DNA of 51,846 nucleotides from Sporichthya brevicatena (GTDB taxonomy: Bacteria; Actinomycetota; Actinomycetes; Sporichthyales; Sporichthyaceae): contig NZ_BAAAHE010000027.1 in the NCBI RefSeq assembly GCF_039525035.1, positions 10,187 to 62,032 of the forward strand. The letters run 5' to 3'. Each line of letters opens with the position of its first letter. Position 1 is the stretch's first letter. The translations under genes and the position numbers were made by a program. Below, in pieces: positions 10,299 to 48,369 of this stretch. The notes beneath the pieces were generated by a model. The model had not been told where the DNA came from. It searched no databases and saw only the letters and a list, made by a program, of their open reading frames with translations.

Positions 10299-10378
10299 CT
10301 GCGGGATGACGTCCCGCAGAGGGCCCCTGTCAGCCCGCAGGAGGGCCGACACCCCACCCCTGCGGGACGTCATCCCGC
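10299..10378. repeat. A-B-A' palindromic repeat element, copy 1
   Basis: Module A (10301-10317) is GCGGGATGACGTCCCGC. Its exact reverse complement (A') is at 10362-10378, 61 bp later. Between them module B (10328-10351) has arms TGTCAGCCC and GGGCCGACA, which pair with one G-T wobble. The linkers are 10 nt each. The whole element can therefore fold as one long hairpin or as three small ones. It lies between convergent genes: the RibD-like gene ends at 10277, and the stop codon of the ligase gene (10370-10372) lies inside A'. Related copies are at 18435-18516 and 48230-48369. Confidence 0.88.
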
Positions 10379-11452
10379 GGAGACCCGACCGGCGAAGACC
10401 TCGGCGAGGTCGAAGTTCACCGGCTCCTCGAGCTGGGCGTAGGTGCAGGACTCGGGTTCACGGTCGGGGCGCCAGCGGACGAACTGCGCCGTGTGCCGGA
10501 ACCGGACCCCCTCCATGTGGTCGTAGCGGACCTCGACGACGAGCTCGGGGCGCAGCGGGACGAACGAGAGGTCCTTCTGCGCGTTCCAGCGGCTGCCGGC
10601 GGCGGCCTCCGGTGTTCGGGTGCCGGCCTCGGTCTGGCCCCAGTTCCACGGGTGGTCGTCGAACTCGGTCACGAACTCCTGCAGGAGCTCGAAGAGCTCC
10701 TTGCGCTTGGCCATCGGGAACGCGCCGATGACGCCGACGCTGGCGAGCCGGCCCTCGTCGTCGTAGAGGCCGAGCAGGAGCGAGCCGACCGCGTCCGGAC
10801 CCGACTTGTGGACGCGGTACCCGGCGACGACGCAGTCGGCGGTCCGGTCGTGCTTGATCTTGAACATCGTCCGCTTGTCCGGCTGGTACGTGCCGGTCGC
10901 GGGCTTGGCCATGACGCCGTCGAGCCCGGCGCCCTCGAACTGGGTGAACCACTGCGCGGCCTCGGCGGGGTCGCGAGTGGCGGGCGTCAGGTGGATCGGG
11001 GCCTTCACCCCGGCCAGGGCCTCCTCCAGGGCGGCGCGACGCTCGGCGAACGGCCGGCCGGTGAAGTCCTCGTCGCCGAGGGCCAGCAGGTCGAAGGCGA
11101 CGAAGCGGGCCGGCGTCTGCTCGGACAGGAGCTTGACCCGGCTCGCCGCCGGGTGGATGCGCTGCAGCAGCGCCTCGAAGTCCAGGCGGACCCCGGCCTC
11201 GTCGGGGATAACGATCTCCCCGTCGAGCACGATCCGCTCCGGCAGCCCGGCGGTGAAGGCCGCGACCAGCTCCGGGAAGTACCGGGTCATCGGCTTGGTG
11301 TTCCGGCTGCCGATCTCGACCTCGTCGCCGTCGCGGTAGACGATCGCGCGAAAACCGTCCCATTTCGGTTCATACAGGAAATCTCCAGCCGGGATCTCCG
11401 GCACGGACTTCGCGAGCATGGGGGCCACAGGAGGCAGAACCGGGAGGCGCAT
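10370..11452 (-). CDS. ligC: ATP-dependent DNA ligase, LigC type
   Basis: This 360-residue nick-sealing enzyme has the adenylation motif I EPKWDGFRA with Lys30 as the AMP acceptor. It also has SRNTKPMTRYFPEL (motif Ia), LDGEIVI (III), FVAFDLLA (IIIa), LDGVMAKPATGTY (IV) and FKIKHDRTADCVVAGYR (V). An OB-fold domain completes it. It lacks the polymerase and nuclease domains of full LigD, so it is a LigC-like ligase. ATG 11452 has AGGA about 9 nt upstream. Its natural partner, a PolC-type polymerase, is at 13294-14358 on the same strand, separated by a protease gene. The last codons and the TGA are contributed by arm A' of the palindromic repeat. Confidence 0.88.
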   Translation of the reverse strand: MRLPVLPPVAPMLAKSVPEIPAGDFLYEPKWDGFRAIVYRDGDEVEIGSRNTKPMTRYFPELVAAFTAGLPERIVLDGEIVIPDEAGVRLDFEALLQRIHPAASRVKLLSEQTPARFVAFDLLALGDEDFTGRPFAERRAALEEALAGVKAPIHLTPATRDPAEAAQWFTQFEGAGLDGVMAKPATGTYQPDKRTMFKIKHDRTADCVVAGYRVHKSGPDAVGSLLLGLYDDEGRLASVGVIGAFPMAKRKELFELLQEFVTEFDDHPWNWGQTEAGTRTPEAAAGSRWNAQKDLSFVPLRPELVVEVRYDHMEGVRFRHTAQFVRWRPDREPESCTYAQLEEPVNFDLAEVFAGRVSAG

Positions 11453-11544
11453 GCCGCGATCCTTGCACTCGGCAGAGACACCCCGGGACATACTGGACGG
11501 CGCGGGGCGATCCCGCCCAACGGTGTTTTCCGGGAGGGCATGAC

Positions 11545-13290
11545 GTGCAGGGCTTTCGCGTGACGGGTGCTGTGGGCATCGCCGGCCTGGCCGCCGCGGT
11601 GACGGCGGCGCTGCTCCCGGTGGGCACGAACGCCCTCGCGGACTCCACCGGCGACCCCGTCGAGTACGTCACGTTGTTCGCCGGGACCGACGCCCGGACC
11701 CGGGACGCGGCGCGCGCCGCCATTTCGGCCGCGGGCGGGCAGATCCTGCAGGAGAACGAGGCGATCGGCACCGCGCTGGTCCGCACCGACCGGACGCAGT
11801 TCCGGACGCTGGTGCGCCGCGGCGGCGCCGTCCTCGGAGCGGTGCCCAACCGCGTCATCGGCCAGGCCCCGGAGCTGACCCGCACCCGTGACGTCGTCGA
11901 GCGCCTCTCCCCCGCCGACCGCGCCGAGGCCACCAAGCGGTTCCGCGCCGCGGCCCCCAAGCAGACGCATCGCGCCGCGGCCGTCGCCGGCGCCGAGCCC
12001 CTCGCCGACCTGCAGTGGAACATGCAGATGATCGGCGCGACCCCGACCGGCTCCTACGCCTCCGAACTCGGCGACAAGCGCGTCCGCGTCGGGGTCATGG
12101 ACACCGGCATCGACGGCGCGCACCCCGACCTCGCGCCGAACTTCGACGCACGGCTGTCGAAGAACTTCACCACCGACATCCCCGAGGCTGACGGCCCGTG
12201 TGAAGTGACGACGTGTCAGGACCCGGCCGACGTCGACGACAACGGCCACGGCACCCACGTCGCCGGCATCATCGGCGCGGCGATCAACGGCATCGGCATC
12301 GCGGGCGTCGCCCCCGAGGTGACCCTGGTCAACGTCCGCGCCGGGCAGGACTCCGGGTTCTTCTTCCTGCAGTCCGTGACCGACGCACTGACGTACTCCG
12401 CGGACATCGGCCTCGACGTGGTCAACATGAGCTTCTACGTCGACCCCTGGCTGTACAACTGCTCGGCCAATCCCACCGACTCGCCCGAGGAGCAGGAGCA
12501 GCAGCGCCTGACCGTCGAGGCCGTCCAGCGCGCCGCGGACTACGCGCGGGGGCACGGCGTCACGCTCGTGGGCGCGCTCGGCAACGAGAGCACCGACCTC
12601 GGCAAGGTGAGCGCGGACGACTCCAGCCCGAACTTCCCCGAGGGCAACGAGCGCGAGCGCGTCGTCGACAACTCCTGCCTGACGGTGCCGGCCGAGACCA
12701 CCGGCGTCGTCTCGGTCTCCGCCCTCGGCCCGTCCGGCCGCAAGGCGTACTACTCGAACTACGGCACCGAGCAGACCGACATCTCCGCGCCCGGGGGCGA
12801 CGCCTTCGACACCCCGGACTTCAAGGTCGACCCCAAGGGCCAGATCCTGTCCGCCTATCCCGAGGCCCTCGGTCGCGCGGAGGGCGAGATCGACGAGAAC
12901 GGGGAGCCCACCTCGCCGTTCACCGTGAAGGACTGCGCCGGCGACGTCTGCGCGTACTACCAGTACCTGCAGGGCACATCGATGGCCGCGCCGCACGTCG
13001 CCGGGGTCGCCGCGCTGGTGGTCAGCCGCGTCGGCTTCGGCCAGGGTTCGGGCTTCGGCCTCGACCCGGGTATCACCGAGAGCGTGCTGTTCAACACGGC
13101 GACCACGCAGTCCTGCCCGAACCCGCCGGACTACGCGTACACGGTCAACGGCGCCAGCGGCACCCGCGAGTTCACCCACACCTGCGAGACCACGAACTCC
13201 ACCAACGGCTTCTACGGCCGCGGCATCGTGAACGCGCAGGCAGTCGGGAACCTGCTCCCGCTCGCGGATCTGACGGCCCCTCCGCGGTAG
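11545..13290 (+). CDS. secreted S8 subtilase with internal cysteine-rich insertions
   Basis: The 581-residue protein has a signal peptide (hydrophobic residues 7-24, likely cut near 'NALADS'). An I9-like propeptide covers about residues 40-105, and the catalytic domain follows. The triad is Asp186 in GVMDTGID, His235 in NGHGTHVAG and Ser479 in GTSMAAPHVAG; Asn347 in GALGNES is the oxyanion residue. Long insertions carry Cys219/224, Cys306/378 and Cys464/469, which could form disulfides outside the cell. GTG 11545 has GGGAGG about 8 nt upstream. The gene sits head-on between the minus-strand ligase and polymerase genes and ends only 3 bp from the end of the polymerase gene. The substrate is unknown. 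Confidence 0.88.
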   Translation: MQGFRVTGAVGIAGLAAAVTAALLPVGTNALADSTGDPVEYVTLFAGTDARTRDAARAAISAAGGQILQENEAIGTALVRTDRTQFRTLVRRGGAVLGAVPNRVIGQAPELTRTRDVVERLSPADRAEATKRFRAAAPKQTHRAAAVAGAEPLADLQWNMQMIGATPTGSYASELGDKRVRVGVMDTGIDGAHPDLAPNFDARLSKNFTTDIPEADGPCEVTTCQDPADVDDNGHGTHVAGIIGAAINGIGIAGVAPEVTLVNVRAGQDSGFFFLQSVTDALTYSADIGLDVVNMSFYVDPWLYNCSANPTDSPEEQEQQRLTVEAVQRAADYARGHGVTLVGALGNESTDLGKVSADDSSPNFPEGNERERVVDNSCLTVPAETTGVVSVSALGPSGRKAYYSNYGTEQTDISAPGGDAFDTPDFKVDPKGQILSAYPEALGRAEGEIDENGEPTSPFTVKDCAGDVCAYYQYLQGTSMAAPHVAGVAALVVSRVGFGQGSGFGLDPGITESVLFNTATTQSCPNPPDYAYTVNGASGTREFTHTCETTNSTNGFYGRGIVNAQAVGNLLPLADLTAPPR

Positions 13291-13293
13291 ACC

Positions 13294-48132: not shown

Positions 48133-48180
48133 TCCTCCTCAGATCGTCGAGTCCCCAGATCCACGAGTCGCCAGATCGTC

Positions 48181-48216
48181 GAGAGGGCCCCGCACCGTCC
48201 GGTGCGGGCCCCTCTC
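48181..48216 (+). terminator. hairpin terminator after sepH
   Basis: GAGAGGGCCCCGCACC (48181-48196) and GGTGCGGGCCCCTCTC (48201-48216) pair over 16 bp with one mismatch around a GTCC loop, 48 nt after the sepH stop. GCTCGTTCCT follows. It is the most typical terminator in the window and lies just before repeat copy 3. Confidence 0.75.
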
Positions 48217-48229
48217 GCTCGTTCCTCCT

Positions 48230-48369
48230 GCGGGATGACGTCCCGCACGGTGCCCCTGTCAGCCCGCCCCCGGGCCGACACCCCACCCCTGCGGGATGAC
48301 GTCCCGCACGGTGCCGGTGTCAGCCCGCCCCCGGGCTGACAGGGGGCGCTGCGGGACGTCATCCCGCAG
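48230..48369. repeat. A-B-A-B-A' palindromic repeat array, copy 3 (extended)
   Basis: Module A is at 48230-48246 and 48291-48307, and its reverse complement A' is at 48351-48367, with start spacings of 61 and 60 bp. Module B is at 48257-48280 (arms TGTCAGCCCG / CGGGCCGACA) and 48318-48341 (TGTCAGCCCG / CGGGCTGACA, a perfect stem). Linkers are 9-10 nt. The second B differs from the others by a change that restores full pairing. The array lies in the 348-bp gap between the convergent sepH and polysaccharide deacetylase genes. Confidence 0.9.

Follow-up and report, generated by a model that had tools for sequence, protein, structure and literature searches.

In Escherichia coli, repetitive extragenic palindromes (REPs) and bacterial interspersed mosaic elements (BIMEs) consist of palindromes that alternate in orientation at regular spacing, and they form tandem arrays as well as singlets. 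Miniature inverted-repeat transposable elements (MITEs) are short, symmetric and dispersed, end in terminal inverted repeats, and can carry different middles between common ends. REP-like repeats are widespread, and the question is why some of them keep their letters without a known transposase. Here we characterise a dispersed element built from two palindromic modules, A and B, in a 51,846-nt stretch of the Sporichthya brevicatena genome (assembly GCF_039525035.1, contig NZ_BAAAHE010000027.1, positions 10,187 to 62,032; hereafter the window), which we tentatively read as REP/BIME-like, confined to one family and maintained as an array on which a putative, co-evolving, sequence-reading factor docks.

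Among the described systems, the letters of REPs are said to co-evolve with the transposase that reads them, in the pairing of REP doublets forming hairpins (REPINs) with REP-associated tyrosine transposases (RAYTs; PMC3116915, PMC8266576), and separations of 72 and 112 bp are given for Pseudomonas arrays. A second group, the CGTC-tagged REPs, lies after genes, with many copies <20 bp from stop codons, in convergent or unidirectional settings (Di Nocera et al. 2013, PMC3733652). In that paper five phyla are listed for CGTC repeats, Actinobacteria not being included, and REP-like sequences without end tags are mentioned in Mycobacterium tuberculosis.

Module geometry and species-specific spelling

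The unit is symmetric and reads A, 11–12 bp, B, 11–12 bp, A', its three dyad centres being ~30 bp apart (29.5–30.5 bp by arithmetic from the extracted units). A has a 13-bp core, GGGATGACGTCCC, and B has the form TGTCRGCCC-N6-GGGCYGACA. The A and B dyads stand in fixed phase, either as A-B-A' or as tandem arrays with up to three A cores, in which the array step equals the unit step. The almost fixed 60–61 bp spacing described in the initial annotation holds for the core-to-core step in the window and widens slightly, to 59–61 bp, across the genome of the window (Sporichthya, 5.2 Mb; G000). In this genome the 17-nt form of A occurs 51 times and its reversed control not once, so chance does not explain the repeat. 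The count of copies that the annotation had proposed gave, genome-wide, 43 sites carrying two A cores or more (core search plus fetched loci; L031, which overlaps the third window copy, is excluded from the counts), alongside one single A (L047, contig C66); a second single A (L035:4494) lies inside a called gene and was taken as a chance match.

We extracted A-B-A units from fetched loci, allowing linkers of 9–14 nt and up to three core mismatches, a scan that would miss units whose cores or B arms have decayed strongly. This gave 55 units in the genome of the window, 13 in a close species (G001) and 7 in a third Sporichthya species (G002). Although the wider range was permitted, linkers measured 11 or 12 nt in 136/136 cases in the first two genomes. 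Cores were exact in 107/110 readings of the 55 home units, cores common to adjacent units being counted twice, and the B arms were exact in 55/55 (5' arm) and 53/55 (3' arm). A C four positions ahead of the core is fixed in 54/54 profiled home units and the two bases past the core vary more, a gapped pattern that suits protein contacts. In Sporichthya, A and B share a half-motif, YGTC-R-K-CCC, seen in A' (CGTCATCCC) and in the TGTCRGCCC arms of B. Within an array the B loops are mostly alike, which points to tandem duplication. At one locus (L042:3966-5342) two element clusters with opposite A orientation lie ~1.2 kb apart with B-like remnants alongside, perhaps a single array split by an insertion.

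Comparison with the close species showed which letters are held. Its 40 stretches were picked for a core or a one-letter variant of it (n = 20) or by synteny (n = 20); 44 home sites were queried, of which 24 could be placed, 5 were partly placed and 15 had no match among the fetched stretches. The placed sites carry an intact unit (n = 11), a single A (n = 4) or no whole A (n = 9) in the close species. Array length also differs between these two species. Across the 11 orthologous intact pairs, which exclude the latter two classes and have 84–99% flank identity, cores differed at 5/286 positions (three of the five at one site with a turned-round A) and B arms at 6/198, with 34/258 in linkers and 19/66 in loops, i.e. 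11/484 for cores plus B arms versus 53/324 for linkers plus loops (p = 4e-13). Mean linker identity among paralogues was 46–48%, versus 36–39% after shuffling.

Within any one Sporichthya genome the core letters hardly vary; those of the sister genus vary more, and between species and genera the letters differ coherently. In the third species the type-1 unit has the core GGGACGWCGTCCC in 13/14 core readings, with both linkers 11 nt long in 7/7 units and a core step of 59 bp. Four home sites could be placed there: three carry the element with the core of the third species (the right A is missing at one of them, L083), and the site of window copy 1 is empty. Relatives in a sister-genus genome (G003) were located with a covariance model; there the core is CGCATGWCATGCG and the geometry is kept. 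Among 20 fetched loci, picked mostly for bearing a core, 12 contain A-B-A at the offsets of type 1 in the third species, within the range of the first two genomes; with linkers of 10–13 nt permitted, both linkers were 11 nt in 12/12 units and the core step was 59 bp. The sister genus has TGTCATGCG as its A half and, in most cases, TGTC-R-NN-CG as its B half, a looser sharing than in Sporichthya. Forward matches to CGCATGNCATGCG (≤1 mismatch) numbered 45 versus 8 for the control in the sister genus, and 11 versus 7 in a further Sporichthyaceae genome (G004), the fifth of the family genomes studied, which contains a diverged unit and, at E = 2.6 only, a lone A-like hairpin.

The third species has a second element type as well, with the core GGGATGWCATCCC around a different middle, which was not seen among the extracted units of the genome of the window and the close species. 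It occurs at L070, L071, L072, L074, L076, L077, L080 and L082, with A ends of similar style, arms near CTCGACCG...CGGTCGAG and middle repeats such as GGRCAAATCGGRCA; the tally of this middle in fetched sequence is too sparse to use, and L093 is the same contig as L070. One copy with a type-2 middle lies in-frame inside gcvP, at the same alignment place in the third species (L082:2516-2588) and the sister genus (L204:3068-3140), whose gcvP products are 78% identical. The former bears the type-2 core, the latter its own genome's CGCATG core, whose left copy deviates by one letter; the middles are similar, and the protein letters at the copy differ along with the core spelling.

The best reading of the range is that the element is restricted to Sporichthyaceae. 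A spelling-free pattern, TGTC-N16-GACA-N14,15-AYGWCRT, which other fixed letters on the same geometry would escape, matched 110, 24, 24, 23 and 1 times, summed over both strands, in the five family genomes and at most twice in each of 388 sampled class genomes outside the family, 83 of which have one or two matches; the Sporichthya-like spelling was found in 3/393 genomes. The collection genome_contigs, from which records of the window's or a very near genome are perhaps left out, gave no match to GGGATGACGTCCC-N44-50-GGGACGTCATCCC, and a wider pattern gave 45 stretches, 14 of them from Sporichthya sp. MGR_bin378. Five contigs of a Bacteroidales metagenome-assembled genome (MAG15; L089, L098, L116, L122 and L128) match a loose double-palindrome pattern, possibly as an unrelated repeat family, and a single viral-contig match was judged by eye to be an unrelated coding tandem repeat. 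Rfam gave no match in the window at gathering score; nine weak matches at copy 3 were rejected, all being below family thresholds. No description of the element was found, among the entries listed, in searches of the open-licence literature on actinobacterial REP/REPIN and Sporichthya repeats, and the main text of RepRanger 2025 (PMC12306157) contains no mention of Sporichthya.

Window copies and gene-end setting

The window holds three copies, and a fourth begins 51 bp past its end (C27:62083). Modules and neighbouring genes are as follows; genes here and below were called with a home-made codon-usage caller, and some neighbours may be wrong.

9534..10277, + strand: left neighbour of copy 1, RibD C-terminal domain protein
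10301..10317, + strand: copy 1, module A (core 10303-10315)
10328..10351, + strand: copy 1, module B (loop GCAGGA; A-C at the R/Y pair)
10362..10378, - strand: copy 1, module A' (core 10364-10376)
10370..11428, - strand: right neighbour of copy 1, ATP-dependent DNA ligase
17129..18424, + strand: left neighbour of copy 2, PD40 beta-propeller protein
18437..18453, + strand: copy 2, module A (core 18439-18451; inner arm changed)
18464..18487, + strand: copy 2, module B
18498..18514, - strand: copy 2, module A' (core 18500-18512)
18534..19502, - strand: right neighbour of copy 2, uroporphyrinogen decarboxylase
47026..48132, + strand: left neighbour of copy 3, DUF3071 protein
48230..48246, + strand: copy 3, first A (core 48232-48244)
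48257..48280, + strand: copy 3, first B (A-C at the R/Y pair)
48291..48307, + strand: copy 3, second A (core 48293-48305)
48318..48341, + strand: copy 3, second B (A-T at the R/Y pair)
48351..48367, - strand: copy 3, closing A' (core 48353-48365)
48481..49593, - strand: right neighbour of copy 3, polysaccharide deacetylase

The initial annotation described copies 1 and 3 correctly apart from coordinate shifts of ≤2 nt (the 17-nt A modules begin at 10301, 18437 and 48230), and the five-module third copy does read A-B-A-B-A'. That A is the exact reverse complement of A' is true of copies 1 and 3; copy 2, whose left A ends in ...CCCGG instead of CCCGC, agrees at 16/17 positions. Directly left of copy 3, at 48180-48217, we noted by eye an inverted repeat of 18 bp around a 2-nt loop, which resembles a separate terminator-type hairpin and has a similar counterpart in the orthologous stretch of the close species.

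All three window copies lie between convergent genes, a placement that the initial annotation had reported and that applies to 21/43 sites genome-wide; a further 20 are tandem, one is divergent and one is inside a called gene. Against background junctions, defined as gaps ≥30 bp from the same loci and hence no genome-wide sample (n = 158: convergent 13, tandem 97, divergent 48), convergent settings were enriched (21/43 vs 13/158, p = 7e-9), in line with the enrichment the annotation had suggested checking, and divergent ones depleted (1/43 vs 48/158, p = 4e-5), the site within a gene being left out of both tests. Tandem sites lie closer to the upstream stop than to the downstream start in 17/20 cases (medians 12.5 and 44.5 nt), and convergent sites have a median of 8 nt at the nearer side. 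At six gene ends the stop codon falls within a core, and the ligase open reading frame (10370-11428, - strand) takes its TGA stop from within the A' core of copy 1. The close and third species show similar distances and the same orientation trend, with too few sites for significance.

A putative reader and its rivals

Three features together argue for a trans-acting reader: letters that are kept strictly, a fixed phase, and spellings that change coherently at sites shared between genomes. The combination of fixed linker length with free linker letters favours docking on one face of double-stranded DNA over a purely single-stranded or RNA structure. Dispersed copies mostly just 3' of genes, A/B arrays and cores kept above linkers agree with the initial annotation's option of a REP/REPIN-like element or protein-binding array. 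Under our tentative reading, a dimeric factor that recognises specific DNA sequence, plausibly a nucleoid or topological protein or a domesticated recombinase, would bind at each dyad and dock on one helix face. Sites would persist because the factor reads them, their placement just past stop codons would reflect tolerance and possibly a local role as a supercoil sink or readthrough barrier, and units, to judge by their remnants, would be lost by deletions. A hairpin-reading nuclease is a possible alternative reader. We hold with less conviction, as a rather doubtful extension, that one lineage-specific factor recognises the A/B half-motif (YGTC-R-K-CCC; in the sister genus TGTC-AT-GCG in A and mostly TGTC-R-NN-CG in B) without a RAYT, its code having changed at least twice with most copies following in place.

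Alignments across genera (29 selected units, not all units) show how the dyads have been respelled. Columns 5-17 hold G-C in 17 units, C-G in 12 and no unpaired bases, and columns 7-15 hold G-C in 17, C-G in 11 and one unpaired. Cells changed on both sides numbered 114 versus 58 ± 5 after shuffling (12–56 in slid controls; the score also exceeds shuffles), and 134 versus 69 for the alternative A:A' pairing, cell count and score being inflated by relatedness, and pair number and pair types least so.

Several points tell against a co-evolving reader. The two measures that relatedness inflates least are not above shuffles (pairs with two-sided change 17 vs 16.2; pair types 35 vs 35.5), so the two-sided changes may be few events. 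The C ahead of the core is weakly conserved in the 13 units of the close species (0.8 bit), just 16/24 sister-genus cores are exact, so that the spelling is looser there, and the 30-bp dyad spacing is near, yet not exactly, three helical turns. With no whole A at 9/24 sites in the close species, single copies are dispensable, and the other middle carried by the gcvP copy and by the type-2 copies of the third species indicates that B is not obligatory. Divergent junctions are not avoided in the sister genus (5/19 sites vs 11/51 background gaps), three of the five divergent sites resting on low-scoring gene calls (22, 33 and 40). Finally, no reader protein was found; a similarity comparison of the proteins of element-adjacent genes across loci, made to locate shared sites, gave gcvP and no reader gene.

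Its closest rival, and one that can overlap with it, is a non-autonomous mobile element of REPIN or MITE type, moved by a non-RAYT enzyme that reads a folded single strand (YGTC tag plus hairpin); we regard this as possible, if on the unlikely side. The fixed letters would then be enzyme specificity, A and A' the ends, and B or the type-2 middle the passenger. Copies are indeed dispersed, A ends flank two different middles in the third species, single A units resemble REP singlets, and element presence differs between the genome of the window and the close species, which are 88–97% identical in longer aligned stretches. Each window copy folds as one hairpin (z = -9.2, -6.6 and -12.0), although such folding follows from the dyads and does not decide between readings. 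Against mobility stands the search for PF01797, the REP-type Y1 transposase and sole transposase family searched: the RAYT that the annotation had proposed looking for was absent from all five family genomes (0/5), with 5/14 controls positive. Linker letters have diverged and linker length hardly has. By eye, no target duplication or clean new insertion was recognised at the compared sites, and the nine sites without a whole A in the close species showed half an A (n = 4), nothing clear (n = 3), another hairpin (n = 1) or a 1.2-kb insert (n = 1); a whole or half A remains at 8/13 sites without a full unit, which therefore look like losses. One single-A site there resembles a deletion between CCCGCAGGA repeats, another a deletion between short CTGAC repeats.

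Inverted repeats of another kind, ending like TTGCGTCCG...CGGACGCAA, are found in two stretches of the close species, L164 and L156 (orthologous to L029 and window copy 2): a long hairpin in one and a 1.2-kb insert in the other. In 518 kb of fetched sequence from that species, each of the two end motifs is present 8 times (reversed controls 3 and 0).

Less probable still is that the element acts through RNA hairpins, to terminate transcription in both directions or to stabilise mRNA 3' ends. Proximity to stops (median 12.5 nt downstream of the gene end at tandem sites, 8 nt at the nearer convergent side) and the strong folding of the window copies are compatible with it, and hairpin clusters have been proposed as bacterial terminators (PMC8355165). 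Within the genus, however, it is letters that are kept, not pairing: neither the A arms nor the B extension nor the loop closure pairs beyond what composition predicts, the latter two pair less than shuffled, and in the alignment of 30 selected units (again not all) neither fold shows any covariation excess. The selection on pairing that the annotation had deduced from a C-to-T change in B does not hold up either. At this R/Y pair the 55 home units have A-T 23, G-T 18, A-C 14 and G-C 0 times (G-C in 1/13 units of the close species), and all five changes among the 11 orthologous pairs are one-sided; with G-C missing and changes one-sided, the substitution is no evidence for pairing. No terminator-like site (hairpin plus U-tract) was found in 48000-48600, no T-run was seen by eye at copies 1 and 2, and copy 3 adjoins a separate inverted repeat at 48180-48217. 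The whole unit is missing at three convergent sites in the close species (window copy 1, L022 and L041:6792), with no replacement hairpin seen by eye in sequence that was not folded. The bidirectional termination that the annotation had put forward is thus possible and not required; it is less likely as the main role and may be a side effect.

Least probable is a neutral relic of an old mobile family whose cores are alike solely through conversion between copies: copies do look lost in the close species, and the mostly shared loops within arrays indicate local homogenisation or duplication, but conversion would have to end at 13-bp cores and 9-bp arms beside linkers of such low paralogue identity, while holding linker length within 1 bp.

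Relation to known repeat families

Returning to the reading of a docking array for a sequence-reading factor, we asked how the element sits among described repeats. It has the properties of REP/BIME in the wide sense, being short, palindromic, mostly intergenic, many-copy and arrayed in the genome of the window; the location 3' of genes with few divergent sites is found there and not in the sister genus. With MITEs it shares short length, symmetry, dispersal and common ends; no target duplication or parent transposase was recognised.

With CGTC-REPs it shares the gene-end setting, inverted dimers with spacers, and YGTC beside a palindromic arm. No dedicated transposase is known for CGTC-REPs; in the five family genomes PF01797, the only family searched, has no match. 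In contrast to CGTC-REPs, whose CGTC/TGTC/CCTC end tag is unpaired, YGTC here sits midway along A or within the basal pairs of B, and neither a conserved 8–9 bp stem arm nor a CCA tail follows A'.

The likeness to BIME and REPIN lies in alternating palindromes, regular spacing, tandem arrays and singlets. Differences from REPIN/RAYT are the lack of PF01797 in the five family genomes and two unlike palindromes per fixed unit, and in place of the Pseudomonas separations of 72 and 112 bp the step is 59–61 bp in the first two Sporichthya genomes and 59 bp in type 1 of the third species and in the sister genus. The consensus of 30 aligned units contains no GTAG end tag, although this tetranucleotide follows the core in a few individual units such as L017. 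With one geometry written in different letters from genome to genome, in part at sites that the genomes share, repeat/reader co-evolution becomes directly testable in actinobacteria not known to be pathogens. Though no member of the REPIN/RAYT system and outside the CGTC-REP layout, the element behaves like a REP/BIME.

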